Source: a virus. From it: 24,498 bases of DNA. Where the stretch lies: IMG/VR virus record IMGVR_UViG_3300043419_000226, positions 1 through 24,498 of that record; one strand, written 5' to 3'. Positions within the stretch are counted from its first letter, which is position 1; each line of letters begins with the position of its first letter. Below the pieces are notes generated by a model. The model saw only the letters and a program-made list of their open reading frames with translations. It searched no databases and was not told the origin of the DNA. Shown one piece after another: positions 803-21,305 of the stretch. The translations under genes and the position numbers were made by a program.

Positions 803-1528
803 TCACCCCACGACAAAGCCGGACTGATCAAGCTTAGCCTTGCCCTTGGCATAGAGGGCCACGACAACCCCGGCAGGATCAAGAAACCGCATGTCGTCAC
901 GGTCACCGTCAATCGTGGGAAGGCCAAGGAAGGTTGACGGGATGTCAGACTTGCGACGGAATACGACCGCAACATTCAGGCCGTTAGCCTTGGCAATATC
1001 AGCCTGAGCCGCATAGGCCTTGTTTGCGCCAGAGTATGACCACGTCAAAGCGTAGTTTGAGGGAAGGCCACGGCGGTTTGCAATCTTGGTGTAGTCATAG
1101 AATTGCACCATCGGGAAAGCTTCCATGACATTGCGATAGACCGGGCCAAAAGCCTCAGTCTGAACCGGGATCAATTCCCAACGGATGTCAGACGTGCCAT
1201 TGAGACGGACGCAAGGCGTGATGCCACGCTTGGCACAGTAAGACACAAAGGACGACAGGTCAGACACAAGCTGAGCCATGAACCCGGCACGGTCAGAGGC
1301 GAACCATTGGGTTTTCCGTGCGCGACCGAGTTGGACAGAGGACATCTGGCCACGGCCTGCGGTGTTCAGGCATCCCGTGATGCATTTGGCCTGCTCTGCC
1401 ATCGGGCAGGTATTGATCCCGGCAGACTTCCAAGGGGTGAGGTACATGATAGCGGTCAGATACTCTGAACCGTCGCCCTTGACCGTCTTAGCGTTATTGC
1501 CACATGCCAGAAGATTGCCCTTCCACAT
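803..1528 (-). CDS. Conserved phage protein of unknown function (DUF7227 / 'gene product 88'-like), 241 aa
   Basis: ATG at 1528 has a strong site, GGAGGAA, 7-8 nt upstream. The protein begins MWKGNLLACGNNAKTVKGDG and carries the segments CPMAEQAKCITGCLNTAGRG (41-60), VRLNGTSDIRWE (107-118), QFYDYTK (142-148), LTWSYSGANKAYA (161-173) and DGDRDDMRFLDP (207-218). From memory these recur in a widespread phage family of unassigned function; the family name is my recollection and unverified. Cysteines 41, 49 and 53 (Cx7Cx3C) are clustered and could bind metal or an Fe-S cluster. The spaced beta-strand-like segments would fit a TIM-barrel-like fold, also inference. It is followed by repeat copy C and is the largest gene of the presumed early block. 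Confidence 0.75.
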   Translation of the reverse strand: MWKGNLLACGNNAKTVKGDGSEYLTAIMYLTPWKSAGINTCPMAEQAKCITGCLNTAGRGQMSSVQLGRARKTQWFASDRAGFMAQLVSDLSSFVSYCAKRGITPCVRLNGTSDIRWELIPVQTEAFGPVYRNVMEAFPMVQFYDYTKIANRRGLPSNYALTWSYSGANKAYAAQADIAKANGLNVAVVFRRKSDIPSTFLGLPTIDGDRDDMRFLDPAGVVVALYAKGKAKLDQSGFVVG

Positions 1529-1610
1529 AGTCCATTCCTCCGGTGTATTGGTTGCGTTGGTGTAACTGTTGATAAGCTAGGGGCAATGCCATTGCAAGCC
1601 CCTTGTGGGT

Positions 1611-1688
1611 TCAGTAGCAATCCTTGGCAAGGATCACCACGACCGCTAGGCCCCATATGATAGACATGAGAAAGAATGCTTCGATCAT
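1611..1688 (-). CDS. 25-aa single-span membrane peptide
   Basis: A very short frame from ATG 1688 to TGA 1613-1611. AAGGGGA lies 6-7 nt upstream of the ATG, a good ribosome site. The product begins MIEAFFLMSIIWGLAVVVIL and ends AKDCY, that is, an acidic residue, one hydrophobic helix of about 18 residues, and a short polar tail. It is the first gene of the leftward run after the non-coding region and lies about 80 bp upstream of the 241-aa gene. T7-like phages often encode tiny membrane peptides early. The strong ribosome site and clean transmembrane composition support it; its small size keeps the confidence moderate. Confidence 0.5.
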   Translation of the reverse strand: MIEAFFLMSIIWGLAVVVILAKDCY

Positions 1689-1716
1689 GACGTTATCCCC
1701 TTGATTGATTGACAAG

Positions 1717-1746
1717 CTAAGAGTGCATCACATGCGGCACTCTTAG
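1717..1746. other. Perfect 10-bp inverted repeat (hairpin)
   Basis: CTAAGAGTGC (1717-1726) and GCACTCTTAG (1737-1746) are exact inverted copies around a 10-nt spacer, just upstream of the 25-aa leftward gene. A second inverted repeat, ATCAAC/GTTGAT, follows at 1750-1755 and 1768-1773. Neither has a T-run, so a 5'-leader structure, RNA processing site or operator is more likely than a terminator. Confidence 0.65.
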
Positions 1747-1911
1747 GTTATCAACCGGGCAAGGCTTGTTGATCCCGTGTTACTGTCACGGCAAGCCCTG
1801 CCCTAGTTGGTGGCCATCATCGGCTTGCGCCTAGGCTTAGGGTCATAACGATGTCAAAGAGCGGTATCGCTTGGCTGTCCGGCTTGTCGCCTTGTTTCCT
1901 TCGATGAACAA

Positions 1912-1962
1912 GGTATAGCCTAGGATTAAATCCCTTGTCCATCCCCTATTTTAAAAAAAAGT
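1912..1962 (-). promoter_or_regulatory. Candidate sigma70-type promoter for the leftward early genes
   Basis: On the minus strand: TGGACA (1941-1936), an 18-bp spacer, then TATACC (1917-1912), with a run of T and A (about 1951-1962) directly upstream that could act as an UP element. It matches consensus at 5/6 and 4/6 positions. The place, ahead of the first small genes, suits the early host-RNA-polymerase promoters known from T7-like phages. The call is by eye. Confidence 0.35.
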
Positions 1963-2015
1963 AACGAAAAGAGCTAACTTTCTTCTAACCTATTGAAAAT
2001 GAATAAAACCTTTTT

Positions 2016-2180
2016 GCATGGTTAGGCATGGTCTGGCCTAGGTTTTCCCTTGTGCATGGTATGGATCACCCGTGCGCGTATCGTGTGCGTGTGTGTGTGT
2101 GCAGGGCTTGGCCTAGGGTCTGGCATGGCTTGCCCTTGGCTTGGCATGGTCTGGCATGGTCTGGCATGGTCTGCCCGGTT
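2016..2180. repeat. Array of 10-bp-spaced GGCATGGT words
   Basis: TTGGCATGGT, CTGGCATGGT and CTGGCATGGT follow head to tail at 2141-2170, with further GCATGGT or GGCATGG variants at about 2016, 2025, 2054 and 2121. The 10-bp step puts the copies on one face of the helix. T7 has short repeat arrays next to its terminal redundancy, which makes a packaging or end-processing role conceivable. The function is not shown by the sequence. Confidence 0.65.
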
Positions 2181-2205
2181 ATGCCTAGGTCTGGCCTAGT
2201 GTTAC

Positions 2206-2235
2206 GTTATAACAAAACGAAAAAATATAGACCAA
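2206..2235 (-). promoter_or_regulatory. Candidate leftward sigma70-type promoter, weak -35
   Basis: On the minus strand: TTGGTC (2235-2230), an 18-bp AT-rich spacer, then TATAAC (2211-2206), five of six matches to the -10 consensus. It lies in an AT-rich patch inside otherwise GC-rich non-coding DNA. It could add to early transcription of the leftward genes. Confidence 0.3.
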
Positions 2236-2510
2236 AAAACAGACCCCCAAGCCTGCCCCGATCTATCCCCCGCCTTGCCTGCCCTTGTTAGGATGTCGCA
2301 TCCTATGGCTAGCCTAATGATTACAATGGGTTAGGCCTTGTTTGTGCCTAGGATCATGGCACAAGACACCACCACCCCGCCTTTCCAGCACTCCACCCCC
2401 ACCCCAGAGGGGGGAAGCTGCGCCGCCACGTATGCGGTAGGTACTTCAGATTTTTGCTAGAAATTCTAAGACCCTATCTCTCAACCACCACTACCACACC
2501 CCTATGTCCA

Positions 2511-2540
2511 ACCCTGTTCAACCCTGTTCAACCCTGTTCA
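2511..2540. repeat. Three perfect tandem copies of ACCCTGTTCA
   Basis: The 10-mer ACCCTGTTCA occurs head to tail at 2511-2520, 2521-2530 and 2531-2540 without a mismatch, with a degenerate half copy on each side (TGTCCA before, CCCTTCTC after). It lies in the non-coding region, in no supported frame. Its 10-bp period matches that of the GGCATGGT array, although the words differ. Confidence 0.8.
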
Positions 2541-2602
2541 CCCTTCTCTCTTCACACTGTTGTTATCTTGGTCAATCCTATTCACCACCATGTCCATTAT
2601 TC

Positions 2603-2678
2603 TGAACCTATGTGTCTCCATGTTGAACCTATGTTCAACAGGTAAAGCTATGTAGAACCTAGGTTAAACCTATGTAGA
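2603..2678. repeat. Spaced GAACCTATG-type words with an inverted repeat
   Basis: TGAACCTATG occurs at 2603-2612 and 2624-2633, exactly 21 bp apart; related words GAACCTAGG and AAACCTATG follow at about 2655 and 2666. CTATGTAGA occurs at 2648-2656 and 2670-2678. GTTGAAC (2622-2628) and GTTCAAC (2633-2639) form a 7-bp stem with a 4-nt loop. The pattern looks like clustered protein sites near the rightward promoter. Confidence 0.6.
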
Positions 2679-2740
2679 GATAGGTAGAGCGGAGGGGGTA
2701 CCCCCCTAGGTGGGTGGGGTAGTTGTTTACCCTTGTTTTC

Positions 2741-2768
2741 TTGACTCCAACAGAACCTTTTATACAAA
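2741..2768 (+). promoter_or_regulatory. Candidate rightward promoter for the plus-strand gene
   Basis: TTGACT (2741-2746), a 16-bp spacer, then TACAAA (2763-2768). The -35 matches consensus at five of six positions and the -10 at four. It lies 45 bp upstream of the plus-strand start codon, and a palindrome covers the predicted transcription start. The only plus-strand gene in the window needs its own promoter, which adds contextual support. Confidence 0.45.
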
Positions 2769-2773
2769 TGGAA

Positions 2774-2783
2774 TCGCTAGCGA
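2774..2783. promoter_or_regulatory. 10-bp palindrome TCGCTAGCGA, operator candidate
   Basis: A perfect 10-bp palindrome directly downstream of the candidate -10 box, where the transcript should begin. A repressor bound here would block the rightward promoter. Because the gene it precedes resembles AbrB-type regulators, autoregulation is a reasonable hypothesis; nothing in the sequence proves it. Confidence 0.35.
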
Positions 2784-2812
2784 AACTGCTACGCTGATGG
2801 AAGGAGTAACGA

Positions 2813-3235
2813 ATGAGGAAGAGACTACAACCCAACGAAGAAAGAAAGGAGGTACAACCAGCTATCCCAGCGAACATCCAGTTTGAACTACCTCTGAGAA
2901 CGAGGTCAGACGCTGTTGACTGTAGGATTACCAACCTAGATCGGAACGGTAAGAGGGATTGTAGACTGACAATCTCCCGCCTGATCATGAGCAAGGCCGG
3001 GTTTAAGCCCGGTCAGAGGTTCACCGTACTACGAGGTAAAGCCCCGCATCACCGTTGGATACGTGTAGAGCCTGCCAACTACGGGCAGAGGCTCTCTGAC
3101 AAGGGTTCCCTATCCCTGAGTGTACGTCAGATCATGAGGCACGATGTCAAACTCAAGGCTGAGAAGGTAGAACCTCTCCTTGGGAAGGATGCAGTCTACT
3201 TCGAACTCCCTGAGAACTGGGTAATCAGGGCGTAG
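2813..3235 (+). CDS. Plus-strand gene of unknown function; tandem AbrB/SymE-like half-barrels (140 aa)
   Basis: The start at ATG 2813 has AAGGAG six bases upstream. This is the only credible plus-strand gene here, convergent with the large terminase. Residues 51-87 (LTIS, then IMSKAGFKPGQRFTVLRG, then WIRVEP) resemble the SpoVT/AbrB and SymE pattern of strand, short helix, 'KPG', strand, strand. Residues 99-133 (LSLSVRQIM...LKAEKVEPLLGKD...YFELP) look like a second copy, suggesting a single-chain pseudo-dimer. The N-terminal 25 residues are charged and probably flexible. Twelve of 18 arginines use AGA or AGG, whereas those I checked in the capsid gene are all CGN, a hint of different origin. 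A DNA-binding or toxin/antitoxin-type regulator is the best guess; no family is firmly recognised. Confidence 0.8.
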   Translation: MRKRLQPNEERKEVQPAIPANIQFELPLRTRSDAVDCRITNLDRNGKRDCRLTISRLIMSKAGFKPGQRFTVLRGKAPHHRWIRVEPANYGQRLSDKGSLSLSVRQIMRHDVKLKAEKVEPLLGKDAVYFELPENWVIRA

Positions 3236-3246
3236 GCTTCGTATAA

Positions 3247-3322
3247 GAGGCGTACAGAGGTGTAGTGTGTCTAGGGTAGGTCAGCCTACCTCAAACCAAT
3301 ACAGCCTCTGTACGGCCCTCTT
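3247..3322. terminator. Large inverted repeat between convergent genes, possible bidirectional terminator
   Basis: CGTACAGAGG (3251-3260) pairs exactly with CCTCTGTACG (3305-3314); GAGG/CCTC (3247-3250 with 3317-3320) extends the stem past a 2-nt bulge. An inner hairpin GGTAGG-TCAG-CCTACC (3275-3290) sits in the loop. It separates the plus-strand gene from the leftward terminase gene, where termination in both directions is needed. Only a short TTT follows on the plus strand, so factor-dependent termination or RNase III cleavage is also possible. Confidence 0.5.
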
Positions 3323-3336
3323 TGAGACCTGTTTGC

Positions 3337-5007
3337 TCATCGACCCCTGAATGAGATCACAGAGGTACGATCAGGGCCTCGTCCAATGGCATTTTCCATA
3401 AATCGGGATAGCTCACTGTCCAGTAGACGGTCTCTTTCCGAGGCTATACCCCGTTCAGCGTCCTGACCCATGCGTTCAGCCCAGTAGTTGATGGCAATAG
3501 ACAGTGCATCAAGACGGTCATCGTGCTTCAAGGCACCACGATCATACGAGATACGTGTCAACTGGTAGATCAAGCTCTTGGTGAACTTGTTATCACCCTC
3601 GTATGCCTGTGCAGAACGGTAGTCTTCCTCAATGACAGAGGAGTCGAACACCAGTTTGTGCCTGTTCATCACAGGTTCGATGGTGTCAATGATCCGTCGT
3701 TCCTTCTGAGTGGAGTGTTTGACCTCTTCGATCATGCAAGGGTGTACCCTCGCCATGACAGGCTTGATCAACTCGGTATACATGCCATCACCAAAGTTAG
3801 CTTCGATGATCACATGGTTCACCTTCTCTTCCTTGGCGATCTGGGAGAGCTTCTCAAGGGTTGCCATGTCGTAACCACCCGGTAGACCCCCTGCCCTGCG
3901 GACGTACAAGAAGCCATTCAGCATCTTGACCACGGCATAACCCGTTTCGTCCTTGCCTCTACCAGCAGGGTCGATGGACATCACGCTCCCAGTGTAGTCT
4001 GAGAAGGTCTCAGAGTGTGCTGCAAAGCGATAAAAGCGATCACCCGACATTGCGAGGTTAGGAAGGAGCTTCCACTCCTTGTTGGGATCAGGCATCCACT
4101 CCACCTTCATGGGAGCGCGATCAACCTGAGTGTCCATCACGATCAAGTCACGTACCTTGAGGGGGAACCTCTCGGTATCGGACAGACTGGTGTTCAACAT
4201 GAACTGCAAGGCAAAACCTGCCTTACCGTATTCAGCCATACGGGCCATCAGGTCCATGTCTGAGAAGCGTTGGGGGTCCGTTGAGGTCCCTACAGTCTTG
4301 TTCAGACGCTTGATGAATGGTGCAAGCTTCTCGCCATACTTCTCCCGCTCCTTGTCAGTGGGTACAAGGGCTGGCCAGATGCGTGTCTCAAAGGTCTCAG
4401 GAAGTTTCTCGTAGATCGAGTCTTCTGTCTGGGGAGTACCGAGGTAGATCACCCGTGCCTCTTCGACAGGCTTGAGGATAGCCGAGAACTCTTTGGTACG
4501 TTCAAGCAGCTTCTCACGCATGTCTGCGGTTGCTGCGTTGTTCAGGATTTCAACGTCGTCTGCGATGATGATGTCAGCACGGCTACCAGTGAGCTGACCA
4601 GTGATACCCACGGATTTAACCGATGGAGACTGGTCTGCGGTGGCTGGACCTACGTCAAACTCGATACGCGAGTTACGTTGTTCTTCACGGGGTCTCAGAT
4701 GGGCCAAGATAGGTAGTTCTTGGATGAGACGCATGGTGAAGGTGGAGAAGGCGTCTGAGCGGCTCTTCGAAGCCGATACGACCAATATCTTCAATTGAGG
4801 ATTACGGTACAACTCCCACAGAACGTAGGCAGAGGTCACGAAAGACTTGCCTACACCCCGGAATGCCTGAATGCAGCACTTGCGAGGACCGTGTTGCAGG
4901 TAATGTGCAATGTCGTATTGAAGAGGTGTGGGATCGGGAAGATTGATGTGCTGCCAGACGACGAAAAGGAACTTGCGAAAGTCCTTCTTGAGTTCATCAG
5001 CTAGCAA
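3337..5007 (-). CDS. terL: Terminase large subunit (T7 gp19-like DNA maturase B)
   Basis: The packaging motor ATPase and nuclease that drives DNA into the prohead and cuts the concatemer. Visible motifs: Walker A AFRGVGKS (48-55), Walker B IIIADDVE (146-153), the coupling segment YLGTPQTE (188-195), and the RNase H-like nuclease acidic residues D346 (SIDPAGRGKDETGY), E402 (IEANFGDGM) and D496/D497/D500 (KHDDRLDAL). The length of 556 is close to T7 gp19 (586). SVKSVGITGQLTGSRADIII (129-148) closely matches the T7 protein as I remember it. The start is TTG at 5007, directly after the small-subunit stop; no ATG exists further upstream in frame, and the N-terminus (LKKDFRKFLFVVW) aligns with the start of gp19. 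Confidence 0.96.
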   Translation of the reverse strand: MLADELKKDFRKFLFVVWQHINLPDPTPLQYDIAHYLQHGPRKCCIQAFRGVGKSFVTSAYVLWELYRNPQLKILVVSASKSRSDAFSTFTMRLIQELPILAHLRPREEQRNSRIEFDVGPATADQSPSVKSVGITGQLTGSRADIIIADDVEILNNAATADMREKLLERTKEFSAILKPVEEARVIYLGTPQTEDSIYEKLPETFETRIWPALVPTDKEREKYGEKLAPFIKRLNKTVGTSTDPQRFSDMDLMARMAEYGKAGFALQFMLNTSLSDTERFPLKVRDLIVMDTQVDRAPMKVEWMPDPNKEWKLLPNLAMSGDRFYRFAAHSETFSDYTGSVMSIDPAGRGKDETGYAVVKMLNGFLYVRRAGGLPGGYDMATLEKLSQIAKEEKVNHVIIEANFGDGMYTELIKPVMARVHPCMIEEVKHSTQKERRIIDTIEPVMNRHKLVFDSSVIEEDYRSAQAYEGDNKFTKSLIYQLTRISYDRGALKHDDRLDALSIAINYWAERMGQDAERGIASERDRLLDSELSRFMENAIGRGPDRTSVISFRGR

Positions 5008-21080: not shown

Positions 21081-21305
21081 TTATTTCTTTGAGCGGTTTT
21101 CGCTCTTAGACATGATCCTCAGATTGGATACGTTGTTGTTCCGAGGATTTCCGTCCTTATGATCAATGTCTTTTCCAGCTACAGCAGCTTTGCCGTGCTT
21201 CTTGATCATAAGCCGACGCGCCTTGTGACGCATCGACTGGTTCTTTAGTTGCTCAGGTGTACCTTGGTATTCCCGGTACTCCTTTGCATAATCTCGTTTC
21301 GCCAT
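21081..21305 (-). CDS. HNH homing-type endonuclease, free-standing
   Basis: 74 aa starting MAKRDYAKEYREYQGTPEQL, with AAGGGG 6-7 nt upstream. The HNH core is clear: DIDHKDGNPRNNNVSNLRIM (46-65), with His49, the Asn56-58 cluster, Asn61, and the terminal SENRSK. It is a metal-dependent DNA nuclease. A basic N-terminal part (RHKARRLMIKKHGK) probably contacts DNA. It is inserted between scaffold and capsid genes, where T7 has none, and is typical of a selfish homing endonuclease of T7-like phages. The gene is complete and appears intact; the length is short but usual for this class. Confidence 0.9.
   Translation of the reverse strand: MAKRDYAKEYREYQGTPEQLKNQSMRHKARRLMIKKHGKAAVAGKDIDHKDGNPRNNNVSNLRIMSKSENRSKK

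Follow-up and report, generated by a model that had tools for sequence, protein, structure and literature searches.

A convergent orphan gene, a candidate genome-end motif, and a long hairpin between the terminase gene and the predicted right genome end of a T7-like phage

Genes and features of the locus

The window analysed here is a linear viral record of 24,498 bp, a metagenomic contig that derives from a T7-like (Autographiviridae) phage. All genes recognised in the window are located on the minus strand with the exception of a single open reading frame (ORF) for a protein of 140 amino acids, which is indeed, as a preliminary description of the sequence had stated, the only gene on the plus strand. 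It faces the gene of the large terminase subunit, the last of the late genes, and both stop codons flank a long hairpin (Table 1). The closest terminase relatives among isolates are those of roseophages, Pseudomonas phage LUZ100, Bordetella phage BB8, and Rhizobium phages (54-62% identity), and the protein is closer to those of many metagenomic contigs (71-80% identity). Two features were observed at the other side of the predicted genome end: a gene of the GP88 family (PF17338, E 5.5e-45; 803-1528, minus strand), which follows the genome end here and in several relatives, and a repeated block, GGACATGCAAARGCGCATGGGAT and GGGATGCCAGCCC..AAGGCTGG, which precedes several small early genes (121-171, 419-441, and 742-778) and is possibly a shared leader or regulatory element.

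Table 1 Features of the region between the terminase gene and the predicted genome end (positions refer to the window)
Feature	Position	Strand	Remarks
Direct terminal repeat, predicted first base	2438	minus	placed like the repeat start of BA14 and P-SSP7 (eighth base after TCTGA); predicted from position
Genome-end motif GAATTTCTAGCAAAAATCTGA (family consensus TTTTGnnnnAAAAATCTGA)	2446-2466	minus	chance 0.01
Non-coding stretch from genome-end motif to gene	2467-2812		short direct repeats at 2505-2543 and 2601-2688; 12-bp palindrome at 2694-2705
TTGACT-N16-TACAAA, promoter-like	2741-2768	plus	9/12 matches; conserved last T missing
Perfect palindrome TCGCTAGCGA, 10 bp	2774-2783		one of 12 such palindromes in the window
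Shine-Dalgarno-like purine run GGAAGGAGT	2799-2807	plus	upstream of the ATG of the ORF
ORF, 140 amino acids (16.3 kDa, pI 10.4)	2813-3235	plus	opposed to the terminase gene; residues 50-72 form an AbrB-like segment
Long imperfect hairpin, about 97 nt	3234-3330		separates the two stop codons; similar stability on plus and minus strand
Large terminase subunit gene	3337-5007	minus	phrog_38, E 9.4e-125; convergent neighbour of the ORF, last late gene

The ORF is very probably a gene. An ORF of at least 140 amino acids was obtained in 0.4% of the dinucleotide shuffles of the interval 2467-3240, and in 0.2% when a Shine-Dalgarno sequence was demanded in addition. The sequence GGAAGGAG is located a few bases 5' of the ATG, which bears out the strong ribosome site noted before. 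Furthermore, the base composition by codon position has a periodicity (p 0.0085 against shuffles), a low value in this phage, yet one within the range of its late genes.

The preliminary description had also assigned a promoter and an operator of its own to this gene. Both sequences are present, the palindrome being perfect, but neither is better than expected by chance: 18 promoter-like sites of the same quality occur in the window and at least one was found in 16% of the shuffles of the upstream region, and a perfect 10-bp palindrome turned up in 14% of shuffles. A dedicated promoter and operator are not supported beyond this chance level. The ORF, its ribosome site, the inverted repeat, and the position at the genome end were retained from that first set of observations. 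A search of the intergenic regions for a promoter of the phage-RNA-polymerase type gave no convincing element common to them. Short tandem repeats at 2013-2182 and 2505-2543, composed of the 10-nt units GGCATGGTCT and CCTGTTCAAC, flank the position at which the terminal repeat is predicted to start and are reminiscent of the short repeats near the ends of T7.

The genome-end motif and the hairpin

The motif TTTTGnnnnAAAAATCTGA is common to the relatives of the terminase, in which it lies downstream of the last late gene. When viral contigs were scanned with nothing but this pattern, at least 80 loci were obtained; among the matches listed, at least 59 loci encode a terminase relative, and in 58 of these 59 cases the motif is located 0.1 to 2.7 kb downstream of the terminase gene and in the same orientation. 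Downstream of the terminase gene it was observed once per locus (window, L078-L157, L203, L204, and L207). Several genomes connect the motif to a physical end. In phages BA14 and FE44 it abuts the annotated terminal repeat (...AAAAATCTGAGTGGGTA, directly followed by TCTC), and in cyanophage P-SSP7, whose 206-bp terminal repeats were identified by sequencing of the genome ends (PMC3350473), the right repeat begins 7 bases after ...ATTTTGGCAGAAATGTCTGA. In the linear record of roseophage CRP-227 (OR420746.1; L076, L077), which is cut precisely at the motif, the last bases are AAAAAAATCTGA and the first ones GGTGGTATACG, and its start GGTGGTATA is the continuation seen in another locus (L106). 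In addition, 15 ends of motif-bearing whole contigs are located within 500 nt downstream of the motif compared to 3.4 expected, an excess consistent with assemblies that break at a repeat a few hundred bases long. No contig end lies within 500 nt upstream; this depletion stems from the use of the terminase to recognise most of the contigs.

A conserved end motif just upstream of a terminal repeat, as is typical of the T7 type of genome end, is thus found in the window when its motif is read together with the boundaries in BA14, FE44, and P-SSP7. From this motif the terminal repeat is predicted to start near position 2438 and to extend towards lower coordinates, and the plus-strand gene would begin about 375 nt from the right genome end and be read towards the interior. 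The proximity of the gene to the presumed genome end, which had been proposed from the first inspection, can thereby be stated precisely. A description of the motif was not found in the literature searched, and since the older literature on T7 and T3 packaging lay outside this search, novelty is not claimed. The motif is a concrete candidate for the sequence by which the terminase finds the genome end, and it may serve to locate the ends of T7-like genomes in metagenomic contigs, in which assembly conceals them.

The long inverted repeat between the ORF and the terminase gene, likewise noted at the outset, proved to be a rare structure. Its arms (3246-3260 and 3305-3319), together with a further inner stem, were matched in 1% of local shuffles, and the predicted folding energy is -43.9 kcal/mol for the plus strand (z -4.6) and -45.4 kcal/mol for the minus strand (z -5.7). 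An Rfam search of positions 1500-3400 gave a single hit, which did not reach the gathering score and is ascribed to chance. In the nearest relatives, a hairpin of similar size follows the last late gene and ends 1-48 nt before the genome-end motif; in the window, 778 nt separate hairpin and motif, and the plus-strand gene occupies this gap. In an alignment of eight relatives, four of the 24 pairs vary on both sides yet stay paired, and these compensatory changes lend modest support to a conserved hairpin structure. In L006-L020, these relatives' hairpins are likewise long and imperfect, with energies of -40 to -64 kcal/mol; they lie about 400-700 nt after the terminase gene, and the inner sequence CTACTACCCTAGC recurs in many of them. 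The hairpin stands out in the close clade; the idea that it is a universal feature of genome ends was rejected, as just 11 of 72 loci had a z-score below -3 (12 shuffles each).

The late-strand RNA is more stable than its complement in 10 of 12 intervals of the nearest relatives (by 10 kcal/mol on average; Wilcoxon p 0.007, calculated for sequences that are related to each other). In the same comparison, the hairpin of the window is nearly symmetric (-46.8/-45.3), which is expected if it must act in both directions. We predict that the hairpin acts at the RNA level as an end signal for late transcripts, serving both directions in this phage. Because a clear U-run is present on neither side of the hairpin in the window, termination is putative, and RNase III processing or 3'-end protection are possible alternative roles.

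The 140-residue protein

No homologue of the protein was found in phages, plasmids, genome contigs, PDB sequences, and 22 related records, nor in viral contigs when the whole protein, residues 48-95, or residues 93-140 served as query. Comparison with Pfam, NCBIfam, PHROGs, and PADLOC gave no match; the curated profile of the AbrB/MazE-type antitoxin domain (PF04014) scored below its cut-off and the SymE profile (PF08845) did not match. A pattern scan with GFKPGQRF yielded two matches, both in unrelated proteins. The preliminary description would have counted the absence of the frame from related phages against it; indeed no relative carries the ORF, which marks the gene as an orphan and is no proof of a false frame.

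A likeness to AbrB and SymE had been suggested for the product, and this hypothesis was thus stated before it was tested. A core profile was built from six sequences, i.e. Escherichia coli SymE, MazE, ChpS, PrlF, and both halves of MraZ. With this profile in HMMER, the protein ranked first against 3158 real ORFs and 2000 shuffles, though with no more than 6.0 bits. With hhalign, the probability was 48% for the full length and 76% for residues 46-92, the decoy maxima being 5.0% among 700 real decoys and 5.3% among 100 shuffles. The match, obtained with the six-sequence profile, spans about 21 residues and corresponds to a core of strand, short helix, GxxxGQ loop, and strand, which is present in residues 50-72 (RLTISRLIMSKAGFKPGQRFT). 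A 14-nt direct repeat (2978-2991/3125-3138) had suggested a tandem duplication of the AbrB-like half, which was rejected on the basis of self-alignment (p 0.59) and hhalign (0.3% for the second half).

Structure prediction and fold search had been proposed as a check of the suggested fold. Single-sequence models of the protein had pLDDT values of 49.5 and 66.9; that of residues 46-140 contains the order beta-alpha-beta-beta, its pLDDT reaching about 80 over a large part of residues 55-95. Searches of the PDB with these low-confidence models retrieved neither an AbrB chain nor a convincing match to any solved structure, and since AbrB-type folds are dimeric and the model is of low quality, the missing AbrB chain does not argue against such a fold. 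Among viral structures, residues 46-140 are best matched by BFVD A0A6J5L3G4 (TM 0.65, probability 1.00, E 0.03), an uncharacterised protein of 208 amino acids from an uncultured phage. Taken together, an AbrB-like DNA-binding fold is somewhat favoured for the protein by the profile comparisons, and binding of DNA is predicted on this basis; the earlier suggestion is kept to the extent that the custom profile and hhalign rank the protein at the top, while curated models and solved structures do not match.

Two other readings bear on the product. In the first one, the ORF is again an accessory gene at this position, but encodes a small basic protein with a fold of another kind, such as an inhibitor of a host enzyme, an RNA-binding protein, or a virion-associated protein, and the resemblance to AbrB is fortuitous, extending over about 20 residues. 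The lack of Pfam, NCBIfam, and PDB matches, the fold searches without an AbrB chain, and the uncharacterised phage protein as best viral structural match all agree with this reading, which we nevertheless regard as rather unlikely, because a hypothesis stated in advance ranked first against thousands of decoys by two methods. In the second one, the ORF is not a gene but a spacer from the terminase gene to the genome end, which is open by chance. Such a spacer would account for the absence of homologues and for a codon usage that is unlike that of the late genes and inside the range of spurious ORFs (score -0.14), and chance ORFs of similar length do occur opposite real genes. At this site, however, there is no gene on the opposite strand to keep a frame open, and the rarity of such an ORF in shuffles, the strong ribosome site, and the significant codon periodicity make this reading improbable.

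The variable slot, interpretation, and comparison with known systems

The slot between the terminase gene and the genome end, in which the gene is located by virtue of its position between hairpin and genome-end motif, is variable, as the contents found in relatives differ. In the nearest clade, the terminase gene is followed by a co-directional gene for an AdoMet-decarboxylase-like protein (PF02675, E 4.6e-18), possibly a metabolic gene of the phage, of which no copy was recognised in the window. It was observed directly after the terminase gene in L004 and L006-L020, and convergent ORFs called in L006, L015-L017, and L020 were discarded as antisense artefacts of it. Roseophages CRP-804, CRP-118, and CRP-403 carry genes for ThyX and glutaredoxin in the slot, convergent with the terminase gene; Limnohabitans phage YIMV22061 has a single convergent ORF of no known function there, and Rhizobium phage RHEph01 a convergent gene further down the slot. 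L029-L032 contain an HNH-like gene, and in many pelagic contigs the slot is empty. A small HNH-like ORF (..RDYAKEYREY..), which also occurs in the slot of these distant relatives L029-L032 as if it were a mobile gene, was observed beside the capsid gene of the window (21081-21305, minus strand).

The explanation that we prefer, with a probability of roughly one half, is that the ORF represents an accessory gene of this variable slot, which extends from the last late gene to the right genome end, that it is opposed to the late genes and probably encodes an AbrB-like DNA-binding protein, and that the hairpin is a shared end of transcripts. The product would be a small basic protein with a core like that of the half-barrels of the AbrB/SymE/MazE type, acting outside virion assembly, presumably in host take-over or gene control. 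The gene would be transcribed from a promoter near the genome end, and its transcript and that of the late genes would meet at the long hairpin as a common end signal. The ORF statistics, the position, the variable slot, the AbrB-like core, the predicted beta-alpha-beta-beta order, the pI of 10.4, and the symmetric hairpin speak for this explanation. The missing curated family, PDB fold match, and homologue, the shortness of the AbrB-like match and the small profile used for it, the failed second AbrB-like repeat, the chance-level promoter, the lack of a proper U-run at the hairpin, and the deviating codon usage speak against it.

The preliminary description had gone further and considered a repressor, an immunity or superinfection factor, or a toxin under control of its own operator, i.e. 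a SymE-like toxin or an AbrB-like repressor. The AbrB/SymE-like segment and the palindrome at a plausible transcript start could be read in this way, but palindrome and promoter are at chance level, PF08845 does not match, and an integrase or lysogeny gene was not recognised within the 24.5-kb window, so that such a regulator or toxin is very improbable. Evidence for any of these roles was not obtained; the earlier interpretation is supported in its genome-end position and partly in its AbrB likeness, and its promoter and operator are not supported beyond chance. It is a highly improbable further extension that an AbrB-like factor binds to the short repeats or palindromes within 2467-2812, linking late transcription with the supply of terminase and the processing of ends; if it were true, such a factor, whose gene is read inwards from beside the terminal repeat and ends at the hairpin shared with the terminase gene, would act at the genome end itself.

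The gene preferred here as an accessory one is of an ordinary kind but has a new sequence, an orphan at a known type of site. Its absence from close relatives and the variability of the site are those of accessory genes of the "moron" type, and it represents one more orphan where T7-like phages exchange cargo, with a DNA-binding prediction that is testable. The more useful outcome is the genome-end motif together with the hairpin.

Compared to the AbrB/SpoVT swapped-hairpin proteins (MazE, ChpS, PrlF, SymE, and MraZ), the protein of the window shares the beta-loop/helix-GxxxGQ-beta core at residues 50-72, is also basic, and has the predicted beta-alpha-beta-beta order; it differs by a longer basic N-terminus, by a second half that is not demonstrably AbrB-like, and by scores below every curated threshold. 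A bidirectional terminator between convergent arms has been described for cobaviruses (PMC6775973), which belong to another phage group, have tail genes in their variable region, and converge elsewhere in the genome. Within the Autographiviridae, the slots of the roseophages and YIMV22061 also contain one or more genes between terminase gene and genome end that are convergent with the former, and in CRP-403, CRP-804, and YIMV22061 a strong hairpin likewise separates the convergent units; the slot proteins compared are not related to that of the window. The statement that T7 has no such gene at this place holds insofar as all post-terminase genes of the T7 relative BA14 run with the terminase gene, and it does not extend to CRP-804, CRP-118, CRP-403, YIMV22061, and RHEph01 with their convergent slot genes. 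BA14 (gp19, phiOR, gp19.5, terminal repeat) and the window have the same order of terminase gene, accessory gene or genes, motif, and direct terminal repeat, but the accessory genes of BA14 are oriented with the terminase gene, whereas the single gene of the window runs against it.
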